Shown: positions 1,238-26,423, numbered from the stretch's first letter. The stretch is 58,671 nt of DNA from Candidatus Gastranaerophilales bacterium (GCA_944325535.1 CALVAL010000002.1:1-58671); one strand, 5' to 3'. Numbers and translations are program-made. The notes: generated by a model not told the origin, from the sequence alone.

Positions 1238-1270
1238 AGAACGTTTAAATATAATTTAAAGGAGCATAAA

Positions 1271-2519: not shown

Positions 2520-3884
2520 TTACACCAAAACTTCTTGTATAATTTCTTTGTTCATTCTCTCTAACAATTGTTTTACACGCTTGTATAATTTAGCATCTGT
2601 ATTTCCTATTGAAGAAATTATGATAACATTGTTAATGTTTTCGATTCCAGTTTCAAACTCGTCTGAAATATCCGCTTTGACGAACTGGATATTCTTAAAT
2701 TGCTGTAACTGGCTTATAGTTTCGTCTTTCATTCCACCAAACACAACAAATGCAAGTTGTTCTTTCTTTTTCGCTAAAAGAACAGATTTTAAGTCAATAA
2801 AATCTTTTTCGATATCATAAATAATATTGTCGCCTAACATTGAGTAAGTGAGTTTTTTGTCTGTGTTTTCAACAAAGATTACCGCAAATAATGCTGCGAT
2901 TGCCCCAAATACGATACCAAGAATAATATTTGTGAACAGTTTAGGCGAAGTTTGTTCATAATCTTGTAATCTTCTCGGTTCTTTTAAAACGATTACGTTT
3001 GAGGATTCGGACATGTTGTCAACCAATCTTGCCCATTCTACTTTCTTTGCAAGCTCTGCAACCTTTTCGGCATCTTCACGTAGTGCGATTTCAGATTTTA
3101 TACCGCTTGCATATTGTCCTTGAATCCCTGATAACGCTTTTTGAGCAGATTTTGAGAAGGCACTCATCGCCGCAAGCCCGCCTGAACCTGCCATTGTATT
3201 TGCAGGCATACCGCTGATGGAGTTCATTTTTTTATCCAAATCAGCTTTAGCCTGTTTGTATTCTGCTTCAAGAACAGTTTTGTCAGACTTGGACTTTTCA
3301 CTGTTAAGTTCTTGGTGTAGAGCGATATAGTTGTTTATTATGGAATTTACTACACCATAAGCCAGTTCTTTGTCTTTACTTTTGTAGCTTATCGTTACAA
3401 CATTTGTGCCTTTTTTGTTTTCAAACGAAATTCCTTTTTTCAAGAATTTTTCTGTTGTTAAAGGTTTTCCTGTTTTTACTGTTGGAATAATTCCGAATAA
3501 TTTTTTGAAACGCAAATCATTTTCTTGAATAACTTTATCAATCACGAGTGGAGATTGCATAATTTCAAGTTCATTCATAAGATTTCCACCACCTGACATC
3601 AAGGCAGCCATTCCACCACCAGTTCCGACTTCAGATATAAAGTACGGATTGATTTCAGCCATGTTTGAACTGTTTGTTTTATTGATGTACAAATCTGCAT
3701 CAACAGTGTATTTCTTTGCGGAAATAAAAGTCATCAAGACAAAGAATGCAAATACTGCGACAAATACTTTTGCAATAAGGAACTTTCTGCTCCAAAGTGC
3801 AAAGAAGATTTTCTTTAAGTCGATAGTGAGTTCTTCGTCCAATTCGTCCTGCGGACAGTAGTAGTTTAAATTTTGCTCTTGCAT
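2520..3884 (-). CDS. Wzz-type polysaccharide chain-length regulator (PCP family)
   Basis: An inner-membrane polysaccharide co-polymerase of 454 aa that sets chain length or couples to export. It has a cytoplasmic N-terminus, a first membrane helix at about 35-54, a long periplasmic helical domain, a Pro-rich segment with TSPK at about 312-315, and a second membrane helix at about 317-338. An unusual extra of about 115 residues follows the second helix. It has a Rossmann-like beta/alpha pattern but no Walker A or tyrosine cluster, so I do not call it a BY-kinase. It is the last gene of the polysaccharide operon, 113 bases after the fusion gene, and meets the prophage gene tail to tail. Confidence 0.88.
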   Translation of the reverse strand: MQEQNLNYYCPQDELDEELTIDLKKIFFALWSRKFLIAKVFVAVFAFFVLMTFISAKKYTVDADLYINKTNSSNMAEINPYFISEVGTGGGMAALMSGGGNLMNELEIMQSPLVIDKVIQENDLRFKKLFGIIPTVKTGKPLTTEKFLKKGISFENKKGTNVVTISYKSKDKELAYGVVNSIINNYIALHQELNSEKSKSDKTVLEAEYKQAKADLDKKMNSISGMPANTMAGSGGLAAMSAFSKSAQKALSGIQGQYASGIKSEIALREDAEKVAELAKKVEWARLVDNMSESSNVIVLKEPRRLQDYEQTSPKLFTNIILGIVFGAIAALFAVIFVENTDKKLTYSMLGDNIIYDIEKDFIDLKSVLLAKKKEQLAFVVFGGMKDETISQLQQFKNIQFVKADISDEFETGIENINNVIIISSIGNTDAKLYKRVKQLLERMNKEIIQEVLV

Positions 3885-5352: not shown

Positions 5353-6600
5353 TTACTCCTTTGAAGTTTCTAATAACTTATACTTCCAAATTGAATACAC
5401 TCTAATGCCAAATACAACACTTTCTGTAATCAATACCATTAAGGCTATTGAATAAATATTCATTTTGTTAATAATAAATAATGTAAATAACCCTGCAATA
5501 TGAACAACAGAGCCAACAATTACACTTCTGTTAGCCTCTTTTGTATGTCCCAACGCTCCAATTAGCGGATAACCTACCAACATTGACGGAAAAACAACCA
5601 AAGATATCACACTAAAAATTCTTAGTACGTGATAAGCATTAGTCATGTCCAATCCGTAAAAATTTGTTATAAACTCTTGTGCAAAAATAAATACGATTGA
5701 ACAAGTCACAACGTTACAAAAAACTGCAACTTTAAACCATTTTTTGTACGTTTTAATATTTTTATTCTTTGCTACAAATGGATAAAGTGCACTCCCTAAA
5801 GGTGATTGTAAACCATTTAAAGCACTATAAATTTTTTCTGCAGCAACGTAATATCCAACCATAACCGTTGAACCGATTAAACCCAAACAAAATGTATTTG
5901 TATTTGTGTAAACAGATACCGATACTCGTGATAAAAAGAATTCCGAACTATACTTAAACTGTTTTTTTATTGCTGTCCACTTCGGGATATATAATTTTGC
6001 ACCTAAATGCTTAATAGCGAAATACATACCAATAGCCCCGGCCACCAAAAACCCCATAGAGTTTAATAACGGAACAATAATATAATCGCTTTCACGTTTT
6101 ACGAAAATAAAAATAAGAACCAAAAAAATCATTTTGGACAAAATATTTAGAAAAGTTATATATTTCATCCTTTCTAGACCTTGAAAAAACCAAACGGGAT
6201 AAATTGCATTCCCGACAACCATTAAAAAAGAAAGCATAAACACAAGCCAATTCTCTCGAAGTTTCGGGATAAAGAAAATTATTATACAAAGAAGGACAAA
6301 ACTTACAGTTAACAGGATAAATTTTATAAACATCACAGCGCTGAAAATATTTGATAAATTTTTTGTATTATGCCTGTTGACAGCGACTTCACGAGTGGCA
6401 GAAAGCCCAAAACCGTAATCCGTAAGCATAATAAAATAAGACATAAATGCGAATGCAAAAAACACCAAACCAAATTTTTCAACACCAAGAACTCTTGAAA
6501 GATAGGGCAGACTTACCAACGGAATTACATAAGATACTATTTGTAAAGCCGTTAAAGATACAAAATTTTCTAATAAATTTTTCTTTTCAGCTCTCATCAT
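5353..6600 (-). CDS. Wzx-like lipid-linked oligosaccharide flippase
   Basis: A 415-aa polytopic membrane protein with about 12 hydrophobic segments and the N-terminal pattern of polysaccharide flippases: VSYVIPLVSLPYLSRVLG, then FGLVFFAFAFMSYFIMLTDYG. It should flip undecaprenyl-pyrophosphate-linked repeat units across the inner membrane for the Wzy polymerase encoded four genes upstream. Two adjacent ATG codons are possible starts; the first overlaps the stop of licD by four bases (ATGA), which implies coupled translation. Length is normal for the family. Confidence 0.92.
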   Translation of the reverse strand: MMRAEKKNLLENFVSLTALQIVSYVIPLVSLPYLSRVLGVEKFGLVFFAFAFMSYFIMLTDYGFGLSATREVAVNRHNTKNLSNIFSAVMFIKFILLTVSFVLLCIIIFFIPKLRENWLVFMLSFLMVVGNAIYPVWFFQGLERMKYITFLNILSKMIFLVLIFIFVKRESDYIIVPLLNSMGFLVAGAIGMYFAIKHLGAKLYIPKWTAIKKQFKYSSEFFLSRVSVSVYTNTNTFCLGLIGSTVMVGYYVAAEKIYSALNGLQSPLGSALYPFVAKNKNIKTYKKWFKVAVFCNVVTCSIVFIFAQEFITNFYGLDMTNAYHVLRIFSVISLVVFPSMLVGYPLIGALGHTKEANRSVIVGSVVHIAGLFTLFIINKMNIYSIALMVLITESVVFGIRVYSIWKYKLLETSKE

Positions 6601-7564: not shown

Positions 7565-9268
7565 TTATTTAAAATATTTTTTTAGTTTATTGTACAAATT
7601 TTTATTATATCTGTTTTGAATATTTCCATCTGAAAGAAGTGTATTTTTATATCCTACAATATCTTGTTTGCAAGAATGCTGAACATATTTATACAAATAT
7701 TCATTTATTATTTCTTTGGGAAATTCTATATCACCAAAAAACTCTGTAAGTTCATCTATAAATTGATTTATGCCATTTTCTGTTGCTATATTCTTCTTAT
7801 AAACCTTTTTTGAAATCTCATCAGAGTATTCATTATATACCGGTTTACCATTTTTAATACCTTGAATAGCAGGTTCATTTGATGTAAACAGTGGCTCAGC
7901 AATTAAGTACATATCTTTTTCTTTAAATAAAAGTTCCCTTTTCATATAAATACAACAATTATTTTCTATTTTTTTACTCGCTGTTGAAAAAAACATACCT
8001 ATTACATTTTTATTTGGCAACATCTTTTGCAAAAAACGTTTTGAAGTAAAATTACCGGTTGTCATATCAATACTAAGCAAAGTATTACCTGGTATATTTA
8101 TATTATCTAAATACTTTTTATATTCTTTTCTGTTTTTCTCTTGCCATAATAATATATCTTTCTGATATTTTTGATAATATTGATTTCGTCTAAAATAAAC
8201 ATCCCACTTATTATATTTTATATTATTAGAACTTAAATATACCTTTGTTGTTAGATATTTATCAGACTCATAACCAAAACACTGTATATTAAGAATTCTT
8301 TGGGCATTTATATAAATATTGGTCTTTATTTCTTTTGCTAATTTTCTGTATATCTTTTGCAATAAGTAACCATCTCTTGCAACAAATAATAATGTTTCAT
8401 AGTTTTCACTTACAGAAATAATAAACTTTACATATGAATATGCCACGATACCGCCAATATAATATCCTAACAATTCATCAAAAGAACTGAATTTTTTATT
8501 TTTCAATGAGTGTAACGCAAAAACTGCAATTAATATACTAACATATACATTTTGCTTATTTAATTTATAAAAAACAGAGAATTTCCGGTTGTTTTTATCT
8601 GTCAAAAAATCAGAAATATATGATTCTAATTTATAACAATCTATTTTATGTTTTTTTGCTTGCTTTATATCATTATGATAACTATCACCAAAGTGTATAA
8701 TTTCAGATGGCTGAACCTTCATATCTTTTAAAACATAGTCATACAAAGAACCTTTGAGTTTTGTCTTTCCAATTTCTCCAGAAATGAATATTTTCTCATA
8801 CCTGGTATAACCATTTTTCTCTAGAAGATTTGATAAGAACTCTTTTGGTAGATACATATCAGATACCAAAATAATTGTTTTATTTTGTCTAAGAGCCTCA
8901 TTATATATTTTGAAATTAACTTGATGCTGGACTGTATATTTTTGTTCATAAATAAGTTCAATATCTTTAAACAATTTTAAGTTGTTAGGCATGTAATTAT
9001 AAATATCATCTATAGTTATATCTTCTTTGTCTATACTTGAATTTTTTCGAGCTGTTATTTCAGCATTAATTCTTTGCTCATAAAACTCTTCTTTTTTTTC
9101 TTTTATTGATATGTATTTAAATAAATCAGTCGGATTACAAAATAATCTTATTAATAAAGTGTCATAAATATCAAAGGAAATTATTTTGTGAGTAGATATT
9201 AATTTTATAATATCTTCATCTGTAATTTCAGTATTTATAACTGTACTAACTCTATTTTGTTTTAGCAT
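7565..9268 (-). CDS. HAD-superfamily hydrolase-like protein of a polysaccharide cluster
   Basis: This 567-aa protein starts with a haloacid-dehalogenase fold: FDIYDTLL (nucleophile D33; the usual second Asp is Tyr35, so general-acid phosphatase chemistry is doubtful), VSDMY with S136, KTKLKGS, and GDSYHND with D195 and D200. The C-terminal half (about 240-567) has no motif I can name, but the segment LLFVARDGYLLQKIY recurs, from memory, in similar HAD proteins within glycan clusters. Role in polymer modification or as a glycosyltransferase partner is unknown. It overlaps the upstream Wzy gene by 17 bases, so it belongs to the same transcript. Confidence 0.75.
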   Translation of the reverse strand: MLKQNRVSTVINTEITDEDIIKLISTHKIISFDIYDTLLIRLFCNPTDLFKYISIKEKKEEFYEQRINAEITARKNSSIDKEDITIDDIYNYMPNNLKLFKDIELIYEQKYTVQHQVNFKIYNEALRQNKTIILVSDMYLPKEFLSNLLEKNGYTRYEKIFISGEIGKTKLKGSLYDYVLKDMKVQPSEIIHFGDSYHNDIKQAKKHKIDCYKLESYISDFLTDKNNRKFSVFYKLNKQNVYVSILIAVFALHSLKNKKFSSFDELLGYYIGGIVAYSYVKFIISVSENYETLLFVARDGYLLQKIYRKLAKEIKTNIYINAQRILNIQCFGYESDKYLTTKVYLSSNNIKYNKWDVYFRRNQYYQKYQKDILLWQEKNRKEYKKYLDNINIPGNTLLSIDMTTGNFTSKRFLQKMLPNKNVIGMFFSTASKKIENNCCIYMKRELLFKEKDMYLIAEPLFTSNEPAIQGIKNGKPVYNEYSDEISKKVYKKNIATENGINQFIDELTEFFGDIEFPKEIINEYLYKYVQHSCKQDIVGYKNTLLSDGNIQNRYNKNLYNKLKKYFK

Positions 9269-10703
9269 TATTATTCTCCTGTTGTATTTTATTTTTTTTT
9301 GCGATTAATATTATTGACATAGAAATTCCAAGCAATATAGTGGCATACTCATCAAGTAAATTTTGATTATAAATTATTGACAAAGAAAATAAAATTATTA
9401 TTGATTGTTTCAGAGCTTGTATAAATTTTGATATTTGTATATTACAATATTTTCTTGCATATTCAATTTTGTTTATAGATTTGATTATAAATACACAATA
9501 TATTATAAAACCAATAAGACCCGTTTGATATAACAGAGAATACATTGCATTTGTTGTAATAGAAATTTTGTCAATTGCACTAGCAAGAATCATTTGCATT
9601 TCTGCTGTCAAAATAACTGGAGAATTCATAAGTTGTTTAATGAGTACACTCCCTGTATTCATAAATCCAACGCCCCATAAAGGGTGTTTTAAAAATATAC
9701 AAAATTGATTATAATTATTAACAATTCTTGTTCCTAACGATGGCTCTGCAACAACCATGGAGTCTAATGACATTTTCGGTATTGTTTCCAAAACATTAAT
9801 AATCCGTAATACATATGTTTTTGATAAGTCAATGCAACTATTAAGATATATGATACATATAATGAGAATTATAAGAAAAGAAACAAATACAGAAAAATGT
9901 TTTATAATATATTTTAGTATATTTTTACCAAAATATACTAATAAAATAATACTTATGAAAATAAGATAAATTGGTGATTGGGTTAGAAATGCAGAAATTA
10001 AAAATAATATCGGCAAGCTTCTTTTACAATAAATATTTAAAAATGGATTATTAAATATTTTAAGTTTTGTTTTTGCAAAGAAAAAAATTAAGGGCAAATT
10101 TATCGCAATGAATTTTGCATAAACACCAGGTTCCATAAAAACACTTCTTATTCTTGGAATGCCTGAATTTACTTCTATAATAACATTTGCATCTTCTGGA
10201 CGTATATTAGATATTAAATGCATTATATCAAGAATAATATTGATATTTAACAATGCTCCAATAAATTCAATAAAACCAATTAGAACAATAACATTGTAAA
10301 TAATTAATATTGTCTTAATTACTTGTTTTAATGATATGTACCTAGGTATAATATATATTACATATAAAAGTGGTAAAAAAAATCTTAAACCGAATCCCAA
10401 TATAGTTACATATAAATATCGTGACAGGGAATAATAATTATATACAACTGCCATTAATCCTGATATAAATATCCATATGTAAAGAATTGTAAAATATCTA
10501 AAGGGAGTATGTTTAAAAAGAAATTTAAATTTTTTGATACAGCGGTTTGGTTGAATTAATAATAAAAATATAGAAATAGGTATAACTGTTAAAAACGCCA
10601 ATGAAATATAACTTGTTTCACTTAAAAATAAAACAGTTGCTGGAAAAAATAAAAATATTAATGGTAACCTTATTATATAAGATATAATATGCGAATACTT
10701 CAA
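9252..10703 (-). CDS. Wzy-like O-antigen/EPS polymerase
   Basis: A 483-aa membrane protein with roughly 11-12 hydrophobic helices and a large periplasmic loop between helices in the second half. In that loop a Pro-Arg segment (GIPRIRSVFMEPGVYAKF) and later HPLWGVGFMNTG resemble the H-x-x-x-G-x-G loop of O-antigen polymerases and ligases. It probably polymerises repeat units delivered by the Wzx encoded downstream. The stop overlaps the next gene by 17 bases and the start lies two bases after the GT4 gene. A ligase of the same fold is an alternative, but the Wzx/Wzz context favours polymerase. Confidence 0.85.
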   Translation of the reverse strand: MKYSHIISYIIRLPLIFLFFPATVLFLSETSYISLAFLTVIPISIFLLLIQPNRCIKKFKFLFKHTPFRYFTILYIWIFISGLMAVVYNYYSLSRYLYVTILGFGLRFFLPLLYVIYIIPRYISLKQVIKTILIIYNVIVLIGFIEFIGALLNINIILDIMHLISNIRPEDANVIIEVNSGIPRIRSVFMEPGVYAKFIAINLPLIFFFAKTKLKIFNNPFLNIYCKRSLPILFLISAFLTQSPIYLIFISIILLVYFGKNILKYIIKHFSVFVSFLIILIICIIYLNSCIDLSKTYVLRIINVLETIPKMSLDSMVVAEPSLGTRIVNNYNQFCIFLKHPLWGVGFMNTGSVLIKQLMNSPVILTAEMQMILASAIDKISITTNAMYSLLYQTGLIGFIIYCVFIIKSINKIEYARKYCNIQISKFIQALKQSIIILFSLSIIYNQNLLDEYATILLGISMSIILIAKKNKIQQENNNAKTK

Positions 10704-11894: not shown

Positions 11895-12182
11895 TTATCT
11901 CATAAACCTCAACAATCTTCCAAAAGCTTTTAAATTACGTTTCATTTCATCTAAGTTTTTTAATGACTGAAATACTTTATAAACTAAATATCTTGATCTT
12001 AAATAGAATTTTCTTCTGGCATAAGTACAAAAACCTACCAAATTTTCACTTGTTAAATCTGACCAGTTGTCTACAACAAAAATTTCATACTCTAAACCTT
12101 CTGTGTTTTCTAATATAGAGTTTATAGCATTTTTTGTTAAATCTTTTGACTTGTAATTAACTATTATTCCTGATACATCCAA
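11895..12182 (-). pseudogene. Chimeric relic: GT2 N-terminus joined to the C-terminus of a radical SAM protein
   Basis: About 95 codons. The first 35 (VSGIIVNYKSKDLTKNAINS through FVVDNWS) are the N-terminus of a WbbL-like GT2 glycosyltransferase, up to the beta strand before its DxD region. From DLTSEN to the end it matches the C-terminus of the radical SAM enzyme at 13366-14814 almost residue for residue (FCTYARRKFYLR, then NLDEMKRNLKAF). Both source enzymes are cut, so neither catalytic domain is complete and the product is probably inactive. There is no ATG; the best start is a TTG at 12182 about 7 bases after GAGGAAA, with another TTG at 12197. It records a deletion or recombination between a lost GT2 gene and a lost radical SAM paralogue. 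Confidence 0.75.
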
Positions 12183-12212
12183 TTTGTATTTCCTCAATTG
12201 TATACTATATCG

Positions 12213-13365: not shown

Positions 13366-14814
13366 CTACATGTAACCCAACAATCTTGAAAAAGCTTTTA
13401 AATTACGTTTCATTTCATCTAAGTTTGTTACTGATTGAATAGTTTTGTAAATTAAATATCTCGGTCTTAGGTAAAACTTTCTTCTTGCGTAAGTACAAAA
13501 ATCTACCAAATCTTCACTTGTTAAATTCGGATAACTTACAACGCATTCATGATTACCGTCCTCTTTAAGCCATTTTGAATAATCAAATGTTTTAATATAT
13601 CCGTTTTCTTTAGCCCAAGCATAAGCTTCTGTACCAGGGTATGGAATAAGAGGGAAAAATTGGGCTGAGTCAGGATTTAATTTAATGGCAAATTTGAGTG
13701 TTTGTTCCATTGTTTCTCTTGTTTCGCCCTTATTTCCAACCATAAAGCAACCGTGTACAAGCAACCCTGCTTTTCTTGCATTTTTCATATATTTATGTGC
13801 TTGCTCAACGGTTGTTCCTTTATGAATATTCTTTAAAATTTCTTGTGAACCGGATTCAAAGCCCGGAATAATCAAACGGCAGCCTGCTTTTTTCATAAGT
13901 TTCATTAACTCTAAATCTGTATGAACTCTTGTATTTGCCCACCATTTAACTTTTTTGTGGATGCCTTTTTCTATAAGCATTCTACAAATTTGCTTTGCTC
14001 TGTCAGGATTTGCAGTGAAAGTATCATCTTCAATGCCTATTGATTTAACTTCTGGAAGATTATTTACTATCCACTCGAATTCAGCAACTACATTTTCTGC
14101 ACTTCTGAGTCTATATTTATGTCCGTGGAATGTTTGAGGATATACACAGAAGAAACATCTTGAAGGGCATCCTCTTCCTGTCATTATCATAACCATAGGT
14201 AATGTCGCTGCGGAGAAAAAGTAATTATTAATATTTAAATGCTTTTTATAAATTTCTGTGACAAATGGAAATTCATCTAAATTTTCAATGTATGCCCTAT
14301 CAGGATTATTAATAATATGTCCGTCTTTTCTATAAGAGATTCCATCTACAGTGGATAAATCTCTATTTTCATTAATTGCTTTAGCTAAATCAACAACAGT
14401 AGCATCATATTCATGTCTTGCAATGCTATCAATTGAAGTTGACATATTTAAAACTTCTTCAGTAAGGACACTTGGGTGTGTCCCAACTAAACAAATATGA
14501 ACATTTGGCATTACTTTTTTTATTTCTTCTGCACAATGCACATCTTCATTGATACTTGGTGTGCTTGTATCTAAAACTATTAATTGTGGATTATAATTTT
14601 TTATAATTTTTAGAGTTTTGTCAAGATTTGTTTGTTCAGCACAACTATCATAAAGTTTTGTCTCAATGTTATTTTTTTCTAAATAAGCGCAAGCATAGGC
14701 TAACCAAAGTGGATTGTATAATGTGCCAGATTTTGTTATTGCAGGTGAGCGTGAAGCTCTCGAAAACTTTCCTAATTCAGTTTTAAATGGCGGATTCAAT
14801 AAAAATACTTTCAT
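13366..14814 (-). CDS. Cobalamin-binding-type (class B-like) radical SAM enzyme
   Basis: A 482-aa protein with an N-terminal B12-binding-type domain (about 1-150, KVFLLNPPF at the start, TSTPSINED and HICLVGTHPSV inside) and a radical SAM barrel with the cluster motif C216-x3-C220-x2-C223 in GRGCPSRCFFCVYP. The lower cobalamin ligand motif DxHxxG is not obvious, so cobalamin binding is likely but not certain. Enzymes of this architecture methylate or rearrange unactivated carbons. Inside a glycan operon the substrate may be a sugar or lipid carrier. Its last 50 codons are repeated in the relic at 11895-12182, evidence that a second copy once existed. Confidence 0.88.
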   Translation of the reverse strand: MKVFLLNPPFKTELGKFSRASRSPAITKSGTLYNPLWLAYACAYLEKNNIETKLYDSCAEQTNLDKTLKIIKNYNPQLIVLDTSTPSINEDVHCAEEIKKVMPNVHICLVGTHPSVLTEEVLNMSTSIDSIARHEYDATVVDLAKAINENRDLSTVDGISYRKDGHIINNPDRAYIENLDEFPFVTEIYKKHLNINNYFFSAATLPMVMIMTGRGCPSRCFFCVYPQTFHGHKYRLRSAENVVAEFEWIVNNLPEVKSIGIEDDTFTANPDRAKQICRMLIEKGIHKKVKWWANTRVHTDLELMKLMKKAGCRLIIPGFESGSQEILKNIHKGTTVEQAHKYMKNARKAGLLVHGCFMVGNKGETRETMEQTLKFAIKLNPDSAQFFPLIPYPGTEAYAWAKENGYIKTFDYSKWLKEDGNHECVVSYPNLTSEDLVDFCTYARRKFYLRPRYLIYKTIQSVTNLDEMKRNLKAFSRLLGYM

Positions 14815-15760: not shown

Positions 15761-17119
15761 TTATCCATGTCTTCCTCCTAGAGCCAAAAACACGGCTTTT
15801 ATTAGGATTCCGATTTCCCACAACACATTTCTATGTTTGAGGTAATACAAATCATATTGTAATTTTTCAGCTTCAGCATCACTTGAGAACAAATGACCTT
15901 GATTAATTTGTGCCCATCCTGTCCAGCCCGTTTTTACCCAATGACGACAACCATGATATGGGACTTGTTCTGAATAAACTTTTACGACTTCATCCCATTC
16001 TGTTCGTGGACCAACAATTGACATTTCACCTTTCAAAATATTTATCATTTGAGGAATCTCATCGAAACGAGCTTTTCTTACAAACTTACAGAATGGAATA
16101 ACTCTATCATCAGCATTCTGATTATCAGCTTTATTTAAATTATCTCCAGTCGGTACATAATCGTTCAAATACATCGTCCTTAATTTATACGCTTCGAATA
16201 TTTTTCCACCTTTTCCAACTCGATTTTGGGTATAAATCGCAGGACCACCGTCAGTCTTTTTAACTCTTATTCCGATATAAACTAAGATTGGAGAAGTAAC
16301 TGTCAAGATAATTAATGCAGCTATTATATCAAATGCTCGTTTACAAAAATCATAAACCAAACTTCTCTTGTTCATAAAATCATAGTAAAGCCAATTTATT
16401 GACATTTTGCTAACATAATATTTTCCAGTTACCATTTCATAGAATTCCGGCATGCGATAGACTTTTACATAATTTGGAACATTATCTACCATATTAGTAA
16501 GTAAATTTTCTTCCATTCTTCGTTTAATCGCAACTATTAGAATATCTACTTCATATTTTTGAATAACATCTTTTAATTCTTCTTGATTAAAAACTTTTGT
16601 TTGAGAATCTTTTATTATATTTTCTTCTTCTTTATCATCAACAAAGCCAACAACAGACATTTTAAGAGCTTTTTTATTCATAATTTCATCTGCAATTAAT
16701 TTTGCTTCTTGATTTGTTCCCATTATTAAAACATTTTTATTCTTTTTAAATTTGAACAAATATAGATGAAATAGATTTCTATAAATCGCTAAAGATAAAT
16801 ATATAGTTAAAATATTTAGTGCAATAAATTCCAGTATTTGCAAATTATGATTGAATAATAACAAAAATATTGTCAAAGGAACGTGAGCAAAAACAACACC
16901 TTCGAATAACAAGTAATAATTTTTTGAAGAAATATTGAACTCTCTTATTTTGTAATTATCTTTCAAGAATAAAACTACAAAACCTGTAATTACAATTAAT
17001 GCTATAGCAAAGAAAAATAAGTTTTGCGGTAAATTAAAAAATTTATACCAAAAACTTGATGATATACTAAACACTAATATATCGAAAATAAGCATAAATA
17101 AAATTGAACGTGATAGCAT
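15761..17119 (-). CDS. Polyprenyl-phosphate sugar-1-phosphate transferase (WbaP/WcaJ type)
   Basis: The initiating enzyme, 452 aa, loads the first sugar phosphate onto undecaprenyl phosphate at the inner membrane. It has four N-terminal membrane helices (about 1-120), a CoA-binding-like middle domain (VLIMGTNQEAKLIADE, about 130-235), a re-entrant helix starting at KRAFDIIAALI, and the catalytic region with QNRVGKGGKIFEAYKLRTM, ARFDEIPQMINILKGEMSIV and GPRTEWDE. All expected catalytic blocks of the family are present. It is the first gene of the minus-strand polysaccharide operon, diverging from the epimerase at 17260 across a 140-base spacer that must hold both promoters. Confidence 0.95.
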   Translation of the reverse strand: MLSRSILFMLIFDILVFSISSSFWYKFFNLPQNLFFFAIALIVITGFVVLFLKDNYKIREFNISSKNYYLLFEGVVFAHVPLTIFLLLFNHNLQILEFIALNILTIYLSLAIYRNLFHLYLFKFKKNKNVLIMGTNQEAKLIADEIMNKKALKMSVVGFVDDKEEENIIKDSQTKVFNQEELKDVIQKYEVDILIVAIKRRMEENLLTNMVDNVPNYVKVYRMPEFYEMVTGKYYVSKMSINWLYYDFMNKRSLVYDFCKRAFDIIAALIILTVTSPILVYIGIRVKKTDGGPAIYTQNRVGKGGKIFEAYKLRTMYLNDYVPTGDNLNKADNQNADDRVIPFCKFVRKARFDEIPQMINILKGEMSIVGPRTEWDEVVKVYSEQVPYHGCRHWVKTGWTGWAQINQGHLFSSDAEAEKLQYDLYYLKHRNVLWEIGILIKAVFLALGGRHG

Positions 17120-18292: not shown

Positions 18293-20848
18293 CTAAATTT
18301 TGGTTACAATAAATGCTGCTGTCATTACAGAAACAATGCTTCTTAATGTGTCACAAACTGGAGTTATCCAATCGTTTCCTGCAATTTTACGAGGTACAAC
18401 AATTACATCACCAGGTTCTACCTGAGCTAATAGTCCAACTTTTTCAGCCCTACCATTTACTCCAACCTTATAAATTCTGAATTTGTTTGCATTTGGAGTA
18501 TATCCACCTACTTCTTTAATATAAGAACTAACACTACCACCTCGTCTATATGTAAAAGATTGTTCATTGTAAACTTCTCCCATAACACTGACTTGGTTAT
18601 TTATTCGAGGAATATAAATGTCATCTCCATCTTGAACTTCTATATTATCGATATCTCGAATTTTTCTAATATCATTACTCTTTATATTTAAAGCTATCTG
18701 CCCAGAATAACGTTTTATAAGGTCTTTTTCTTCATTTTTCATCATTGTAATCATGTCCATCTTACTTTGTTGATCTGCTTCAGTTGCTTTCCAAGCTCCA
18801 GCCATTCGACCTTCTAGCAATCGAATATCTCTATCATTATTTTTTCTAGCGATATTAAGTTGAGTACCTTGTAAGTTTGCTCTTTTATATACAATTCCTC
18901 TTAAATCTGCTTTTTCAGTTAATCCTCCTGCTAACATTATCATATCAATTAGCTTTTTACCTTCTATGCTTGTATATACACCAGGGCGTTCAACAAAACC
19001 AGATATTTTAACATATTTAATTGCTTCATTATCTCTTAAAGTACGGAAAAATATTTTATCATTTGCTTGAATTGGAATTTCTTTGATTCTGTCTGAATTA
19101 ATCATGATATCGTATAAATAATACAATGTGGTATTACCATCTTCATTTGTGATTTCTACAGCCACTTTTTCAGCAGGAATTAGTTTGTTATCACTTGTGG
19201 TTACTGCTGTTAGCATAACATCATCATTTGATTGTTTTTTATAAGAAACTTTTTGAACTTCTGAATTTTCATTGTTAACATTTGTTTCCATAAAACGAAT
19301 ATCAGTCATTACATCATCTAAGGTCAGACCATCAATGTAAGCAAGGTGTTTTGGTTGATTGATACATCCATAAATATCAACAAATTCAGAATTTGTATTT
19401 TTGTAGATACTTATAACATCCTTTGGTTGCAGAAGTGGATCTGACAATCCTTCAAAGAAGTCTTTTAAGAATACTGGTATAGTTTCCACCATATTGTCTT
19501 TACCAGAAACTCTTCTGATTACTGCTTGATTTAAAAATGTTTCTTCCAAAAGCTCATCTTCTGATTTTAAGATGTCTGATAATCTCATTCCTTTTGTATA
19601 TGCATAAGTTGCTGGGTGTTTTATGTTACCTTGAATGGTTACAATATTCTCAACTTCATTATATAATTCTCTGAATTCTAAAGAATCACCATTATTTAAT
19701 TCGACATTTTTTGCTTTATTCCAAACTATATTTTTAGCAGTTTTTTGATTTGCTTCTTTATCGAACCCAATAAGTGTTACTTCCGATATTTGGGTTGTAG
19801 GAGCAAAGCCTCCAGCATATTTAACTATTTTCTGTATATCTTCTTTGTCTTTTGTTTCATAAATACCAGGTTCAATGACACCATTTTTTATTGCAACTAC
19901 ATTACCAATTTTATTAACGAAAATTTTATCATTTGGTCTTAAAATAATGCCATCATCTTCGCCTAAGAAAATAGTTTTATACAAGTCAATATTCTTTGGT
20001 TTTGAATTATTTGTTGAATATGAAATGTTTCTCAATGTACCTGATTTTTTAACACCACCAGCCATATTTAAAGCATCAAATACAGTAGAATTGTTTCCCA
20101 CAAGTACTTTACCAGGTCTATTTACTTGACCAAAAACGAAAACTGCAAATTCTTGTCCAGTTGTTACATTAAGGTGAATTTTTAAACTTTTATATTTAGC
20201 ATTTGCTAATTTATTAATAGCTGCTTCTACTTCTCCGATACTTTTACCTTCTGCCTGAACCATTCCTATACCTTGAATAAATAAATTCCCCTTTGAATCT
20301 ACAGAGGTTGTTGTCATTGGATTAAGTAAAGAAGCTCCAGAAATTGCCATAACATCAACAGAATCTCCTTGGAGATATGCTGTAACTTTTTCACCAATAT
20401 TTAATTTGTAATTATTATCAAATTTTCCGGTTGTAGCATTTGATGATACGACATTCCCAAATAAATCATAACCAACTTGTTTTAGCATAGAGCCTGAAAT
20501 TTCAACATTTTTCCCATTGAACATTTCTTCAATTGGACTTATTAAAGAATTGTTATATAATCTTTCTCCTGCTTTATATTTATTTGTGAAAGCATCGCTT
20601 TGTTTTTTTGATTTTACAACATCTTCTATTGTATTTTCATTTTCATTATTTAACATTTTACTTGAAGATTGTTGTACTTGGTTATAATTTCCCTGCTGTA
20701 ATTTAAGATTAGAATATTGTAATTCCTCTTGTTGTTTTATTTTTTCTAATTTTGCTTTTTCAGCAGGAGAAACAAAACGTCTTGCTTCTGTTGGCACAGT
20801 CGTTACAGAAAATATTAATAAAATTAAAATTGCAATATATTTTTTCAT
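18293..20848 (-). CDS. Large SLBB-domain polysaccharide export protein (Wza-like)
   Basis: An 851-aa exported protein with a signal peptide (MKKYIAILILLIFSVTTVPTEA). A polysaccharide-export domain lies at about 140-235, and several SLBB beta-grasp repeats follow, visible as recurring units such as VFGQVNRPGKV, GVIEPGIYETKD, IQGNIKHPATYAY, ISGFVERPGVYTS and VMGEVYNEQSFTYRRGG. The last 25 residues are hydrophobic. It should form or line the outer-membrane exit channel for the polymer. It is about twice the size of Wza, because of the extra SLBB repeats. There is no lipobox cysteine at the signal cleavage site. It ends the operon that starts at 25271, ten bases after the radical SAM gene. Confidence 0.9.
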   Translation of the reverse strand: MKKYIAILILLIFSVTTVPTEARRFVSPAEKAKLEKIKQQEELQYSNLKLQQGNYNQVQQSSSKMLNNENENTIEDVVKSKKQSDAFTNKYKAGERLYNNSLISPIEEMFNGKNVEISGSMLKQVGYDLFGNVVSSNATTGKFDNNYKLNIGEKVTAYLQGDSVDVMAISGASLLNPMTTTSVDSKGNLFIQGIGMVQAEGKSIGEVEAAINKLANAKYKSLKIHLNVTTGQEFAVFVFGQVNRPGKVLVGNNSTVFDALNMAGGVKKSGTLRNISYSTNNSKPKNIDLYKTIFLGEDDGIILRPNDKIFVNKIGNVVAIKNGVIEPGIYETKDKEDIQKIVKYAGGFAPTTQISEVTLIGFDKEANQKTAKNIVWNKAKNVELNNGDSLEFRELYNEVENIVTIQGNIKHPATYAYTKGMRLSDILKSEDELLEETFLNQAVIRRVSGKDNMVETIPVFLKDFFEGLSDPLLQPKDVISIYKNTNSEFVDIYGCINQPKHLAYIDGLTLDDVMTDIRFMETNVNNENSEVQKVSYKKQSNDDVMLTAVTTSDNKLIPAEKVAVEITNEDGNTTLYYLYDIMINSDRIKEIPIQANDKIFFRTLRDNEAIKYVKISGFVERPGVYTSIEGKKLIDMIMLAGGLTEKADLRGIVYKRANLQGTQLNIARKNNDRDIRLLEGRMAGAWKATEADQQSKMDMITMMKNEEKDLIKRYSGQIALNIKSNDIRKIRDIDNIEVQDGDDIYIPRINNQVSVMGEVYNEQSFTYRRGGSVSSYIKEVGGYTPNANKFRIYKVGVNGRAEKVGLLAQVEPGDVIVVPRKIAGNDWITPVCDTLRSIVSVMTAAFIVTKI

Positions 20849-20858
20849 TTTTTACTCC

Positions 20859-21917
20859 TTAAGTTATAGCAATTTCCATTAATGATTTGATTGCAGGCCA
20901 CTCAAGCTTCCATAGTCCAGAAGCATCTAGTGCATAATTCCCTACACAAGCTAACTTGCAATCTTTGCATTTATTTACTGTTTCTATAAATAATGGATCT
21001 TTGATTACTTCTTTCAAAGGTCTATTTTTAACACTAATAAATGGTTTTCTATCATAGCATCTAAGCATATCGCCATTTGAATAAATAACAGTTGCAATTC
21101 TTGGCCAATGGCATTCATAGTAAGTTTTTTTATTAATAATGTAATCCATAAAATAATATGAATTTCTAATTGGATAACCTTGTTTTTTTAGTTCTTTAAT
21201 TTTTATGAACATTTCTGCTAATTGATCATTTTCTAACTCTGTTTCGACGACATTTTGAGCTTCTTCTGGTCTTGAAGCAGCTTTATTAACAGTAAAGTAA
21301 AGAAGAATATCTGCATCTTTACAATATTGAGCAACTTCTTTAATTTGTTCAAAACTGGTTTGAGTTGATACAGTACAGCAAATATATATTCTCATTTTAG
21401 GGGAGTGAATTTTGTGATATTCAATTCCACTCATAACTTTGTCACAAATACCTGGCATATGACGGATATCATCATGTGCTTTTCCAATTGCATCAAGTGA
21501 AATAAATGATAAATCTGTATATTTTGCGAAATCAGGATTCGTTTCTAAAAACCATCCGTTTGTTGCAATTTTTGTATAAAGTCCTGCATCATGAGAGGCT
21601 TTACAAATTTCTGCAAAATCTTGTCTCAATAAAGGTTCTCCCCCCCAAAGTATGCTATCCATATAGCCAATTTCTCCAGCTTCTGTGAGAAGTCTAATGA
21701 TTTCTTCTTTTGGCATATCATCTTGACCTTTTTTAGATTTCCAAAAACAGAAATCACAGTCACAATTGCAAGCACTTGTAACCATTAAAGAAAAACACAA
21801 TGGTTTAGGATTTTTTGATAGTCTACTTTGAATACATTCTAAAGCTCCTCCAAAAAGATGTCTGTAGTATTTGATTCTTTCTAATGTCATTTTGTTTCTA
21901 GATTCTTGCTTTAACAT
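20859..21917 (-). CDS. Radical SAM protein with SPASM-like C-terminus
   Basis: A 352-aa radical SAM enzyme with the cluster motif C50-x3-C54-x2-C57 in VTSACNCDCDFCFWK and the following WGGEPLLR segment of the SAM-binding region. The C-terminal part holds a second group of cysteines (CHWPRIA, LRCYDRKP, NKCKDCKLAC) consistent with an auxiliary iron-sulfur cluster of SPASM or twitch type. The substrate is unknown. The start overlaps the preceding gene by seven bases and the SLBB gene follows ten bases later, tying a radical enzyme to polymer export. Confidence 0.88.
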   Translation of the reverse strand: MLKQESRNKMTLERIKYYRHLFGGALECIQSRLSKNPKPLCFSLMVTSACNCDCDFCFWKSKKGQDDMPKEEIIRLLTEAGEIGYMDSILWGGEPLLRQDFAEICKASHDAGLYTKIATNGWFLETNPDFAKYTDLSFISLDAIGKAHDDIRHMPGICDKVMSGIEYHKIHSPKMRIYICCTVSTQTSFEQIKEVAQYCKDADILLYFTVNKAASRPEEAQNVVETELENDQLAEMFIKIKELKKQGYPIRNSYYFMDYIINKKTYYECHWPRIATVIYSNGDMLRCYDRKPFISVKNRPLKEVIKDPLFIETVNKCKDCKLACVGNYALDASGLWKLEWPAIKSLMEIAIT

Positions 21918-23113
21918 TGCAAAATACCCTCTTCCTTATTTTTTATATTTTTTTGTCTTACTTTTTTACGTTTAACCAAATCTATAAAAGCTTCGATTCT
22001 TGTTTGATATCCAGCTTTTCCTGTTTGTTCATCTAAAACTAAACTCATTACAGGGATATTTTCTTCTTTACTTACTTTTGTAAGAATATTTTGAGAAACA
22101 ATTTCTGGCATGCAAGAGAATGGCATTATATGAATTACCCCATCAATCCCATTTTTAGCCGCAAAAACGGTATCACCTATTGTTTCAATAGTTTCTCCTC
22201 CAATTGCTCGTTTCATATATTTTTCAGCAAATCTTACACAACGTTCTCTGTGAGATTCTTTTTTGTATAAAAAAGACGGTTGTAAGACGTGTTCAAGCCA
22301 ATCTGAAAAGAAGATCTGTCGTTCAACTTCTACTCCTAAATCTCCTAAAGTTTTTTCAATTTCTTTATTAGTATATGGGTCAAGGAGTACAAAGAATTCA
22401 CCCAATAAATAGACTTTTGGAACAATTTTATTCTTATCAATTGGTATTTTTTTGAAATCTTTAATTATATGTTTTTTTAGCTGTTTACAGCCCCAAATAG
22501 AAGTTGTTTCTGCAATTTTTTTGTACCATTTTTTATAACAACGCTCAGCTTCTCCCTTATTTAATTCTCTTGGACGAGTGTAGAATAATAATCTTTCCGC
22601 AGTATCAATTGCAAAAGCTTTGTTAAAACCAGTACTAAAACCCTTATAATACCTATAAGGATTTGCACATCTTGTAACATGCCAGAAAGCTTGCAGTGTT
22701 TGCTTCATTTTGCTTTGGTACATGTCGAATACTACCATATCAAATTTATAGCCCATTTTCTTTAAAGTTTTTTGAGCCATTTTTGTATAATTACCAAATC
22801 TGCAAGAGCCGGGAGCTTGGAACATCATTAGTGTATTAGCACCTTTTTCAAGTGCCATTATATAATTTGCCAAATTTAATTTATAAGGTAAGCAAATCCC
22901 TTCAATACTATTTTTAACTCCAATTTCTAATGCTTCATTTGTATTAGGAGGAGCCTCTACTATTTTCACGCCTAAAGAACTTACAAGAGCATTCATAGAA
23001 AGGTCAATGTTTCCCATTCTTGGCCAAGCTACAACTCTATTTTTTGTAGCTATTGTATTATCTTTCTGGAAAAATCTATTTTTTTGTTCTTTTCTTTGTT
23101 TTAGTTCGTTCAA
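21911..23113 (-). CDS. COG3581-like protein of the HgdB/CoA-dehydratase activase group
   Basis: A 400-aa relative of the 2-hydroxyacyl-CoA dehydratase/activase-associated proteins. The N-terminal region (PRMGNIDLSMNALVSSLGVK, then EIGVKNSIEGICLPYKLNLA and APGSCRFGNY) matches the COG3581 pattern as I remember it. Three cysteines at conserved places, C74, C104 and C334 (FSCMPEIV), could bind an iron-sulfur cluster. In other bacteria this domain is often fused to an ASKHA ATPase activase; none is encoded in this window. It is co-transcribed with a COG3580-like gene two genes upstream, forming a probable heterodimer. Function is not established. Confidence 0.8.
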   Translation of the reverse strand: MNELKQRKEQKNRFFQKDNTIATKNRVVAWPRMGNIDLSMNALVSSLGVKIVEAPPNTNEALEIGVKNSIEGICLPYKLNLANYIMALEKGANTLMMFQAPGSCRFGNYTKMAQKTLKKMGYKFDMVVFDMYQSKMKQTLQAFWHVTRCANPYRYYKGFSTGFNKAFAIDTAERLLFYTRPRELNKGEAERCYKKWYKKIAETTSIWGCKQLKKHIIKDFKKIPIDKNKIVPKVYLLGEFFVLLDPYTNKEIEKTLGDLGVEVERQIFFSDWLEHVLQPSFLYKKESHRERCVRFAEKYMKRAIGGETIETIGDTVFAAKNGIDGVIHIMPFSCMPEIVSQNILTKVSKEENIPVMSLVLDEQTGKAGYQTRIEAFIDLVKRKKVRQKNIKNKEEGILQC

Positions 23114-23125
23114 AACAAACTCCTG

Positions 23126-24163
23126 CTAAATTACAACAATAGGATTTGAGTATGCAAAGCCTCTATTGTTTATATGTATTTCAATACGATATTTACCAAT
23201 TTGTGTTAATAATAGGTTACATTTTTTAGCAACACATTCATAAAGCTCTCGACCATTCAAAATAACTTTGATTAAAGCTTTTTTATTAACATCTACTTTT
23301 AAATAAGTTTTTTTATCTAAGTTTAAGAAATCTCCACTATTAGCAGATTTTAAACTATTACTAATTTCAATATTTGGAATTTCATTGAGTATATGACGAT
23401 TTACTATTGTGTTATTACCATTTTTTATGGCATTCAAGATTTGTTCTTTTGCTATATTAAAATCGTTTGATAAAGGTTTAGTTAAATATATAATATTGTT
23501 TATAGTTTTAAACATCGTTCTATATGGAAAAATTGTAATAGGTAGTATATAATTGTTTATTTTTAATGCATGAGCATCAACTCCACCTATTGCAGGCACA
23601 ATTGTTTGCGTTTTAGAGTTTAATTTATCCCACCATTTTAAAGATTCTTGTGAAGCTTTTGATATAAGCTTATGTTTGAATAAATATGAATAGGCTAAGG
23701 TAAAAATATTTTTACTATTTAATTTATCTCCCCAACAAGAAAACCAATTCCATATTTCTACACCATCTGGCATGAAATTCTTATTCCAGGTAATAGGAGG
23801 ATAGTTATTTTTTCTTTTTTGATATTCATCTGGATGAGCTGCAAAGCCAATTCCATTTTGTTTTCTTACTTCGTTTATATAAACTTGTGGATTTTCATTA
23901 GGTTCTATCTGTTTATTTATACCAAGAGCAATGTAGTGATTTTCTTTTTTAGGTGAAATTTCTTCTCCTTTTATTACATAAACACCATTATAAAGACCTT
24001 CTTTTGTATCAAAAAAATTGTGGTCAGTAATTATAATCCAAGATAATCCAGCTTTTTTTGCTGCCTTAGAAATTGTTTCAATATCTCCACTCCCATCTGA
24101 ATTTAGAGAATGGATATGAATAACTCCTTTATATTTAAAATTTTTCAAATTATCGTTTTTCAA
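23126..24163 (-). CDS. PHP-domain metal-dependent phosphoesterase
   Basis: A 345-aa protein whose first 250 residues form a PHP domain: HIHS at 16-19, TDHN with D47 and H48, GEE with E67, HYIALG with H76, AAHP with H110 and the late GGVDAH motif. These residues usually bind two or three metals and hydrolyse phosphoesters or phosphoanhydrides. The last 80 residues look like a beta-rich domain. Close relatives include 3',5'-nucleoside bisphosphate phosphatases and histidinol phosphatase-like enzymes, but the substrate here is unknown. It sits between the two HgdB-like genes, 13 and 12 bases from them. Confidence 0.85.
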   Translation of the reverse strand: MKNDNLKNFKYKGVIHIHSLNSDGSGDIETISKAAKKAGLSWIIITDHNFFDTKEGLYNGVYVIKGEEISPKKENHYIALGINKQIEPNENPQVYINEVRKQNGIGFAAHPDEYQKRKNNYPPITWNKNFMPDGVEIWNWFSCWGDKLNSKNIFTLAYSYLFKHKLISKASQESLKWWDKLNSKTQTIVPAIGGVDAHALKINNYILPITIFPYRTMFKTINNIIYLTKPLSNDFNIAKEQILNAIKNGNNTIVNRHILNEIPNIEISNSLKSANSGDFLNLDKKTYLKVDVNKKALIKVILNGRELYECVAKKCNLLLTQIGKYRIEIHINNRGFAYSNPIVVI

Positions 24164-24176
24164 TTAACTATCCTGT

Positions 24177-25271
24177 CTATACAAAATTTACGGTCTTATC
24201 ATCTTTTTTTGCAGTTTGTTCTCTTTTTGAAGAAGGTAATCTTTTGATATTGTTATTATCTTTAAGAATTTTACGCTTTCTTCTAATTAGCATATCAACA
24301 AAGGCTTCAACTCTTGTTATAAATCCGGCCTCTCCAGTATGCTCATCTATTGTTAAATGCATCATAGGAAGTCCTTTTTCAGAAGCATGGTATTGGATTT
24401 CATCAACCATCAATGAATCTGGACCACAACCAAAAGCAGAAAGTGCAATAATACCATCTACTTTGTTATTCAACATATAATAAGCTGCTGCTCCAGTTAA
24501 ATCTAATTCATTTGCCCAATATTGAATTTCTCCAAGTTTTTCAATAGAACTGATAGCATCTTGTTTTGAGACATTTAATCCTGTATATGCTTTTACCCCC
24601 ATTTTTTCTAGTTTTTTTATCAAACTCATGGAAATTCTTTCATCAAACAAATTATATCCATGTGCCATGATTACAACAGATAAAGGCTTAACAATTTCAA
24701 TCGGTTTTGAAACGATTTTGTTTTCAATTGCATATTTAATGGCATCTTCAAATGGAATGCCTGCTAATGTCATTTGTTGGAAATTATTGTAAATAGACCA
24801 ACCATATTGAATTGCAACTTCTATTTTATTTTCATCAAAAATATCTAATTGATGGGCTGTATCGTAACAAAAATCTTTAAAAAAAATATTATTTGTCTTA
24901 TCTAGAGTTGGTTCAATCATTTTAAAAGGTCTATCTATAACATTTCTAATAATTTCAGGTAACCCCCTGATTTTTGTACAGTTATTAACTTTATATGCTG
25001 TTGATTGTAAAGATGGTATGAAAATGGTATTACATCCTTTTTCTAATAAATTGACTACATGACCTACAAAAACTTTAATAGGTAAGCAAGTATCAGAAAC
25101 CACGTAATTGGAACCTTCATTAATTAGTTTTGTAGTAGTTTTATCCGATAAAAGAATATCAAACCCAAGACCTTTGAAAAAACCAAAATAAAAAGGATAA
25201 TTATTATAATAAGAAATTGCTTTTGGAATTCCTATAATATTATTACAAATTTCATTATTATCTTTTTTCAT
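24177..25271 (-). CDS. COG3580-like (DUF2229) protein of the HgdB/CoA-dehydratase activase group
   Basis: The first gene of the operon, 364 aa. It carries the DUF2229 signature IGIPKAISYYNNYPFYFGFF followed by GFDILLSDKTTTKL, and cysteines C62 (SDTCLPIK), C98 (NNCTKIRG) and C282 (FGCGPDS) in positions mirroring those of its partner at 21911. The pairing of COG3580-like and COG3581-like proteins is known next to activases of radical dehydratases, whose role is ATP-driven low-potential electron transfer. The ATPase itself is absent here. GAGG lies about 5 bases before the start, and an extended -10 promoter candidate lies about 70 bases upstream. Confidence 0.8.
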   Translation of the reverse strand: MKKDNNEICNNIIGIPKAISYYNNYPFYFGFFKGLGFDILLSDKTTTKLINEGSNYVVSDTCLPIKVFVGHVVNLLEKGCNTIFIPSLQSTAYKVNNCTKIRGLPEIIRNVIDRPFKMIEPTLDKTNNIFFKDFCYDTAHQLDIFDENKIEVAIQYGWSIYNNFQQMTLAGIPFEDAIKYAIENKIVSKPIEIVKPLSVVIMAHGYNLFDERISMSLIKKLEKMGVKAYTGLNVSKQDAISSIEKLGEIQYWANELDLTGAAAYYMLNNKVDGIIALSAFGCGPDSLMVDEIQYHASEKGLPMMHLTIDEHTGEAGFITRVEAFVDMLIRRKRKILKDNNNIKRLPSSKREQTAKKDDKTVNFV

Positions 25272-25340
25272 TATACCTCTTTGTATTAATTCCTATTGTT
25301 ATGCAATTTAATGCAAAGAATAATAACATATTCTGAGTAT

Positions 25341-25349
25341 ATAGTAGCA
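25341..25349 (-). promoter_or_regulatory. Candidate extended -10 promoter of the HgdB-like operon
   Basis: On the minus strand the sequence reads TGCTACTAT, an extended -10 (TGn plus a TACTAT hexamer), about 70 bases before the first gene at 25271. No strong -35 is visible, which is normal for extended -10 promoters. The leader would be about 60 bases. Confidence 0.4.
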
Positions 25350-25444
25350 CAAACAAAATAATAAATTTTATAAATAAGTAACGTGGCCTATTTTTGTAAC
25401 AAATTTATAATTTTATCTTTTAAAATTCAGCAATAACAAACTTT

Positions 25445-25725
25445 TTAGGGCTTGTGCTTAATAATATAAAATGTTGTATATATTGTTTTATGTTCACTGT
25501 AAATATTGGTAAATGCTAACATTAAGTTTTTAATGTTTGTGATAAAATCAATTTTGCTTTGCTCAAGCTCAAGGTATCGTAGAGTTATTTCAGGAGGACT
25601 ATGTTTTAAACTTTTTGTAACATAACTTCATCTTTATACTTTTCGTAATAATGACATCCGAATGTTTTATGTAAGGTGTGTGTTTCTATATTAGCTTCAA
25701 TACCACCGTTGGAACAGAAAGTAGG
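25445..25725 (-). pseudogene. Tyrosine recombinase (phage integrase) C-terminal relic, frameshifted
   Basis: In one minus-strand frame the sequence reads NIETHTLHKTFGCHYYEKYK, then DEVMLQKV and a stop. One frame over it continues with HSPPEITLRYLELEQ. Together these are the C-terminal catalytic part of a tyrosine integrase (H-x-L-R-K-T-F-G, then H-S-S-P-x-x-T-x-R-Y) split by a frameshift near 25605-25615. The catalytic Arg of HxLR is His (CAT at 25669-25671), while the Tyr codon at 25574-25576 is kept. The N-terminal two thirds are missing; upstream sequence ends at the REP element starting at 25721. It is a dead trace of a former integrated element. Confidence 0.75.
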
Positions 25726-25753
25726 ATGTGGTAAATCTTTGATTTACCGCATC
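25721..25753 (+). repeat. REP element with GTAG head (copy 1)
   Basis: GTAG at 25721-25724 is followed by a hairpin: a 13-base stem at 25725-25737, a TTT loop and the complementary arm at 25741-25753 with one G-T pair. A GTAG or GGAG tetranucleotide 5' of an imperfect palindrome is the hallmark of REP sequences recognised by RAYT transposases. An inverted copy lies at 26007-26039. Confidence 0.8.
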
Positions 25754-25766
25754 AAAACTTATTGAA

Positions 25767-25889
25767 TTATTCATAATCTAAATCTGCAATTTTATATTTA
25801 TCTTCAAAATTACACCAATCGGTCTCATAATATCCATTTTTAACAAAATTGTTAAACGTAGAATATTTCCAATTCCTTGGTCTAATTTG
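25767..25889 (-). pseudogene. C-terminal relic of a REP-associated tyrosine transposase (RAYT, IS200/IS605-related)
   Basis: A 40-codon minus-strand stretch between two stops reads RPRNWKYSTFNNFVKNGYYE, then TDWCNFEDKYKIADLDYE. This matches the C-terminus of RAYT/Y1 transposases (W-x-Y-S-S-F, then V-x-x-G-x-Y, then D-W). The catalytic HUH and Tyr region is gone. The relic lies between two GTAG-headed REP palindromes facing each other, the expected layout of a decayed REPtron. Confidence 0.75.
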
Positions 25890-26006
25890 CTAATGTTTTA
25901 TCTGATTATATTACGTATTTTATTTGTAACAATAGTAATAAAAATTATACTATTTGGAATATAGAATCTTTTGTAATTTATAAATGTATTTTAGCATATA
26001 TTAAAA

Positions 26007-26039
26007 GATGTGGTAAATCAAAGATTTACCACATCCTAC
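26007..26039 (-). repeat. REP element with GTAG head (copy 2, inverted)
   Basis: On the minus strand GTAG (26039-26036) precedes a perfect 13-base stem hairpin with a three-base loop (26035-26007). It differs from copy 1 in only one base of the second arm. The two copies face each other and bracket about 250 bases with the RAYT relic. Confidence 0.82.
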
Positions 26040-26100
26040 GAACTATTTTAGTTGTTTTTTATAATATCAGTCGGATTTATTTACGAAAGATGTTGCCAAA

Positions 26101-26361
26101 ATGGTTATGAATCAAATTTCTCGTGATAATTTAGATAAAGAGTTGGAGTTGGTGAATAAAAAAGCAGCGAATTGTATATCAAGCTTTGATATTTTGCAAG
26201 CAAATGAAATACTTGATGAATATTTATCAATAATTGCGGATAAAAATTTATCTCCAAAGTCACATATTCTAAATTGTGGAGGAATCCCGATGAAACTAAC
26301 ACTAGAAAATATAAACAAAAACTCTGAATTTTTTAATACATTATTCAAAAACATAAAATAG
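26101..26361 (+). CDS. Hypothetical protein, possibly a truncated gene end
   Basis: An 86-aa helical protein of unknown family (KELELVNKKAANCISSFDIL). No clear ribosome-binding site precedes the ATG at 26101. The same frame stays open upstream for a dozen codons (SDLFTKDVAKM) before a stop close to the REP element at 26039. This suggests the 3' end of a longer gene cut by the REP/RAYT insertion, or a small gene with a poor start. No membrane segment, signal peptide or known motif is visible. It is convergent with thrB. Confidence 0.5.
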   Translation: MVMNQISRDNLDKELELVNKKAANCISSFDILQANEILDEYLSIIADKNLSPKSHILNCGGIPMKLTLENINKNSEFFNTLFKNIK

Positions 26362-26423
26362 ATTTTACAGTTTAGAATTGATATAAAAATTCAGAGTAGT
26401 TCAAAATATTATAAATGTTTATT

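Follow-up and report, generated by a model that had tools for sequence, protein, structure and literature searches.

A putative reductase pair tied to radical SAM enzymes and polysaccharide export in Candidatus Gastranaerophilales

Why should two iron-sulfur proteins that resemble benzoyl-CoA reductases share an operon with a polysaccharide exporter? The question is raised by a stretch of 58,671 nucleotides (GCA_944325535.1 CALVAL010000002.1:1-58671), called the window in what follows, from a genome that the names of its relatives place in Candidatus Gastranaerophilales, a group of the cyanobacterial phylum that lives in the gut. Enzymes of the benzoyl-CoA reductase/2-hydroxyacyl-CoA dehydratase (BCR/HAD) family are known from amino acid fermentation, from the degradation of aromatic compounds and, recently, from plasmalogen synthesis. 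A copy that comes and goes strictly together with polysaccharide export would bring strongly reducing chemistry to the assembly of the cell surface, here in uncultured gut relatives of the cyanobacteria. The reading that we tentatively favour, with a probability of about 0.45, is that a reductase pair of this type modifies the lipid end of an exported polysaccharide, and shares its activase with other proteins of the cell.

The operon and its iron-sulfur pair

Five open reading frames, all on the minus strand, occupy positions 18293-25271 of the window and are separated by spacers of 13, 12, -7 and 10 bases. In operon order, they are:

24177..25271, minus strand: COG3580-like subunit, 364 aa; Pfam DUF2229 9.1e-45, HGD-D 1.6e-8; cysteines C62/C98/C282; like the 'Red1' half of PlsA
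23126..24163, minus strand: PHP metallohydrolase (CehA/McbA-like), 345 aa, TTG start; PHP 5.5e-6, CehA/McbA 9.3e-18, under that model's own cut-off
21911..23113, minus strand: COG3581-like subunit, 400 aa; HGD-D 5.7e-10, weak DUF2229; cysteines C74/C104/C334; like the 'Red2' half, PlsR
20859..21917, minus strand: radical SAM enzyme rSAM1, 352 aa; Radical_SAM 2.6e-11; best NCBIfam match TIGR03961 4.2e-31, under cut-off
18293..20848, minus strand: Wza-type polysaccharide exporter with SLBB repeats, 851 aa; SLBB 9.5e-33, SLBB_2 8e-20, Poly_export 7.7e-7

A first-pass annotation of the window had described the same five genes with the same order, lengths and spacers, including the 851-aa SLBB exporter, and our gene calls reproduce all of this; the coordinates that it gave, 20859-25271, cover four of the genes, but the exporter falls just beyond them. 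Two of the five genes start with TTG; in a close relative, the codon at the corresponding place of the COG3581 gene is ATG. The Poly_export domain of the exporter barely clears the Pfam cut-off; together with the SLBB domains it places the protein among Wza-type exporters, and a search for PF02563 finds it to be the only such protein in the genome. Upstream of the operon, positions 25272-26423 form a region of about 1.1 kb without any open reading frame of at least 100 aa.

The six cysteines of the pair had also been singled out in that annotation. The positions are right, and they are conserved: C62, C98, C282, C74 and C334 are invariant among accessory and core homologues, and C104 is nearly so. 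Structure models of the COG3581-like protein (P0002, pLDDT 85.6) and of the COG3580-like protein (P0001, pLDDT 80.5), searched with Foldseek against the PDB, match only BCR/HAD chains below an E-value of 1e-3, with best values in the 1e-8 range: the double-cubane protein DCCP, HadBC (2-hydroxyisocaproyl-CoA dehydratase) and the benzoyl-CoA reductases BzdNO and MbdON. The COG3581-like model reaches a VIA Z of 15.0 (rmsd 4.8 over 306 residues), and the COG3580-like model, 15.3 (rmsd 4.1 over 284 residues); against these values near 15, the first entries unrelated to the family score about 9. Judged by these models, both proteins have the fold of BCR/HAD subunits. They are also homologous to each other (hhalign 99.7%). 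Since a HAD dehydratase pairs two different but homologous subunits, each holding one cluster (PMC11574389), two clusters are the natural expectation for this pair. By this analogy, the six cysteines probably hold two [4Fe-4S] clusters, one in each subunit of a putative heterodimer and each bound by three cysteines, rather than one joint site. The DCCP family itself is rejected, the NCBIfam equivalog NF040772 scoring 18.3 bits against a cut-off of 350.

The likeness to the BCR/HAD superfamily thus extends to the predicted fold, the two homologous subunits, the three conserved cysteines in each, and the presence in the genome of an activase of the BcrAD_BadFG type. However, identity to solved members is only 9-16%, the setting is a polysaccharide locus, and no genes for CoA substrates are recognised nearby.

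Core copies, activase and known relatives

Neither the two iron-sulfur proteins nor the rest of the window contains an activase (BcrAD_BadFG) domain, and the first-pass annotation had built an argument on this lack. The argument finds no support at the scale of the genome, whose sole full-length match to the domain, a protein of 334 aa, is encoded on another contig (C32) and could serve the accessory pair as well as a core set. This core set consists of separate copies of COG3580, on contig C25, and COG3581, on contig C73. It had further been asked whether an activase might be encoded elsewhere together with a known dehydratase partner: one does lie outside the window, yet the core proteins that it probably serves are uncharacterised, so that no known dehydratase claims it. 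We infer that the core activase also serves the accessory pair, to which it would probably pass electrons; several reductases served by one activase are then suggested.

Outside the accessory group, the closest relatives of the pair (33-47% identity, with the same split domains) are this core set and a run of Monoglobus in which COG3580, COG3581 and activase genes are adjacent. Identities to the Monoglobus run are 33% and 34%, and 51% for the core activase. Unlike the accessory pair, Monoglobus has its activase next door, and in family f1 neither its run nor the core set lies beside radical SAM or exporter genes. In trees, the accessory copies group with the core and Monoglobus-type copies, apart from PlsA/PlsR, on long branches that leave the depth of this grouping unsure. 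On the reading that we favour, the pair is a second, pathway-specific BCR/HAD-type reductase that originated as a duplicate of the core set.

A further comparison is with lipid reductases, which act on lipid esters by means of related reductase domains: the products are vinyl ethers with PlsA/PlsR and alkyl ethers with Ger (PMC12838417, PMC13274423, PMC9702350). The likeness lies in the DUF2229- and HGD-D-type halves (Red1 and Red2) and in the lipid setting. Here, however, the halves are separate genes in an operon without an activation domain, which in those systems is fused to Red1; and the pair, 20-28% identical to fused or PlsA/PlsR-type proteins (E-values of about 1e-7 to 1e-31), sits on a separate branch, and its genes go with two radical SAM genes and one for a polysaccharide exporter. 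Architecture and tree placement both reject true membership in PlsA. Homologues of PlsA without the activation domain, of a role reported as unclear, are described in Bacillota (PMC13274423), and the present locus would offer a place to seek that role.

The earlier annotation knew of no described system like this one, and the open-access literature that we searched holds no matching system either. As a system, the conserved locus seems not to have been described in that literature, each of its enzyme families being already known.

Gene order and co-occurrence

The annotation had asked whether the five-gene order is conserved among genomes. Among 80 named loci, the complete run is found in 57, and in 10 others rSAM1 lies too close to a contig end for judgement. 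The order is conserved far beyond chance, and the idea that it is unique to this genome is rejected. The run is made of two blocks, COG3580-PHP-COG3581 and rSAM1-exporter, which lie on opposite strands in loci L132 and L191. In L125, L127, L144, L150 and L176, COG3580 and PHP, and mostly COG3581 too, are not recognised beside rSAM1, and family f7 has COG3581-rSAM1-exporter only. In one locus, that of Candidatus Adamsella (L183, 6334-8658), the place of COG3580-PHP is taken by a deaminase-like protein and one of 574 aa that matches no Pfam family.

rSAM1 and the exporter are adjacent in 74 of the 80 loci, rearranged ones included. This invites the conjecture that the exporter, or some protein that works with it, is modified by rSAM1, the radical SAM enzymes drawing low-potential electrons from the iron-sulfur pair. 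The sequence of rSAM1 bears on this. A CX3CX2C motif stands at C50/C54/C57, and the C-terminus carries C269-X12-G-X4-C287, which fits CX9-15GX4C, plus C317/C320/C324, a short SPASM- or twitch-like end; these motif cysteines are invariant in 14 orthologues, and the protein has no match to the Pfam SPASM model. Such an end suits a maturase, but SPASM-type ends are not confined to peptide maturases; moreover, rSAM1 lies away from any exporter in L187, L188, L190 and L193, and protein maturation would account neither for rSAM2, a second radical SAM enzyme, nor for the lipid genes described below. We consider it improbable. Distant relatives of rSAM1 away from the exporter context have housekeeping neighbours.

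In the genus to which the window belongs, 11 of the 34 genomes have the accessory COG3581, and the same 11 have PHP, rSAM1 and the sole PF02563 exporter; PHP occurs only where the module is present, and rSAM2 is found in those 11 genomes plus G024. For the whole order, the tree of the core COG3581 served as a stand-in for the species tree. On it, presence of the pair changes 11 times, and rSAM2 follows the pair: 6 to 7 of 8 independent comparisons agree and none disagrees (sign test, p = 0.016-0.031). The genus alone yields four supported comparisons, with which the tree-corrected test is unable to reach significance. Two points weigh against the reading that we favour: three genomes of family f3 have the COG3581 gene and no rSAM1 at E<1e-60; and linked genes move together, which explains part of their co-occurrence.

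Mobility also raises the question of whether the pair is just a redundant duplicate of the core set, in the same housekeeping role, that happened to be carried into the locus. Core-type copies are indeed present in nearly all genomes of the order that we searched, while the accessory copy is patchy; genes of the phage-integrase family lie directly upstream of the module in L045 (11249-12133) and L116 (5852-6394), fitting such a patchy spread. However, redundancy accords poorly with the perfect co-presence with the sole exporter in the genus, with the conserved gene order, and with the fate of the accessory COG3581 where it is unlinked from rSAM1 and the exporter: all six genomes with rearranged loci that were searched (L125, L127, L132, L144, L150 and L176) keep it, at 75-77% identity. 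We regard redundancy as very improbable.

Constant ends of a polysaccharide locus

The remainder of the window adds the usual parts of a Wzx/Wzy/Wza-type locus:

15761..17119, minus strand: priming glycosylphosphotransferase of the same polysaccharide locus; Bac_transf 2.2e-49, EPS_sugtrans over cut-off
9252..10703, minus strand: Wzy-like polymerase of the variable middle, 483 aa; Wzy_C 2.8e-7, just below cut-off; about 30% identical in the nearest relatives
5353..6600, minus strand: Wzx-like flippase of the variable middle, 415 aa; Polysacc_synt 1e-59
2520..3884, minus strand: Wzz chain-length protein, 454 aa; Wzz 8.4e-12

In the two nearest relatives (G022 and G007) the locus is a single run that leads from the iron-sulfur module, through glycosyltransferases and the Wzy-like gene, to Wzz, rSAM2, a PAP2 phosphatase and a lipid kinase. 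Compared with G007, identity lies at 87-100% for Wzz and each of the first five genes, while the middle genes are 30-74% identical or absent; PAP2 and the kinase, at 47% and 58%, are far below the pair. In the window's genome, the trio rSAM2-PAP2-kinase is on contig C52. Mu-like phage genes (Phage_Mu_F, a D12-class adenine methylase, virion morphogenesis) adjoin the 3' end of Wzz at window positions 1-2519, and on C52 (L085, 7583-11221) Mu-type transposase genes lie beside rSAM2 and a 63-aa Wzz tail that shares 54% identity with the Wzz of the window. The locus may have been split by a Mu-like insertion or by a contig join.

The parallel is with group 2 capsule loci, whose conserved flanks encode export and a common lipid end. 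Here, too, the ends are constant and the middle variable; what sets these ends apart from known Wzx/Wzy/Wza loci is the BCR/HAD pair with PHP, the two radical SAM enzymes, and PAP2 with the lipid kinase. Over the 80 loci, the commonest further neighbours are the lipid kinase (40), rSAM2 (39) and PAP2 (36), then the priming transferase (30), Wzz (17) and a PlsC acyltransferase (15), and in families f2 to f4 rSAM2 often directly adjoins the accessory COG3581 gene. These constant ends and the PAP2, kinase and PlsC neighbours together make a lipid the favoured target.

By the same parallel, the pair, PHP, rSAM1 and the exporter at one end, and rSAM2, PAP2 and the YegS-type kinase at the other, with variable sugar genes between them, most likely serve to produce a shared lipid end and to export it. 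The pair would reduce an oxygenated group of this lipid, most plausibly turning an acyl ester into an ether, and the radical SAM enzymes would modify the lipid further. Because PlsA/PlsR and Ger convert lipid esters with related reductase domains, the same step is our leading guess at the chemistry. A low-potential modification of a surface glycan or lipid had been proposed in the first-pass annotation; the proposal outlives its premise of a missing activase and is still the best reading, given the conserved tie to a radical SAM enzyme and an exporter and the BCR/HAD fold. Against the lipid version stand the closer kinship of the pair to the uncharacterised Monoglobus-type set than to PlsA, and the fact that PAP2 and the kinase could be engaged in ordinary carrier recycling and, as noted, resemble their G007 counterparts far less than the pair does. 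A bolder form, in which the ATP-driven pair works with both radical SAM enzymes to give a lipid end in reduced form, ether-type or carbon-carbon-coupled, that anchors every capsule or exopolysaccharide leaving through the sole Wza-type exporter, strikes us as doubtful.

Two other substrates have to be weighed. With radical SAM help, the pair might make a deoxygenated or otherwise unusual common sugar by reductive or radical dehydration: the setting is a polysaccharide locus, HAD enzymes do dehydrate, and cytosylglucuronate decarboxylase is among the matches of rSAM1. However, the module stays constant while the sugar genes differ between loci, its commonest constant neighbours are lipid genes, and the known substrates of BCR/HAD enzymes are CoA thioesters or lipids and, to our knowledge, no sugars. 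We hold a sugar target to be unlikely. Alternatively, the module might alter a dedicated polyprenyl or glycerolipid carrier of the repeat units, recycled by PAP2 and the lipid kinase, which stand side by side after Wzz in a locus of Wzx/Wzy type. Yet no polyprenyl-specific enzyme is seen, the PlsC genes of 15 loci point to glycerolipids, and we know of no BCR/HAD enzyme described as acting on polyprenols; this carrier seems quite unlikely.

Apart from the favoured lipid end, the radical SAM enzymes call for a few remarks. Tes and Mss are lipid-coupling enzymes of this class. rSAM1 matches Tes (7TOL) weakly, over the common core, and a sequence search of the PDB with rSAM2 gives no match to it at E<=1e-3. 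Plasmid relatives of rSAM2, in Escherichia albertii, Klebsiella and Methanosphaera, have unrelated neighbours; those on the E. albertii and Klebsiella plasmids (L201, 2254-3633, and L202, 8896-10197) are about 34% identical, with no recognisable lipid or polysaccharide genes beside them. The variable middle of the window encodes one more radical SAM enzyme, B12-binding (13366-14814, minus strand), which is 92.5% identical in G022 and was not found in G007. Finally, a 100-aa open reading frame at 11895-12197 begins like a glycosyltransferase, ends like the C-terminus of this B12-binding protein, and looks like a remnant of recombination.
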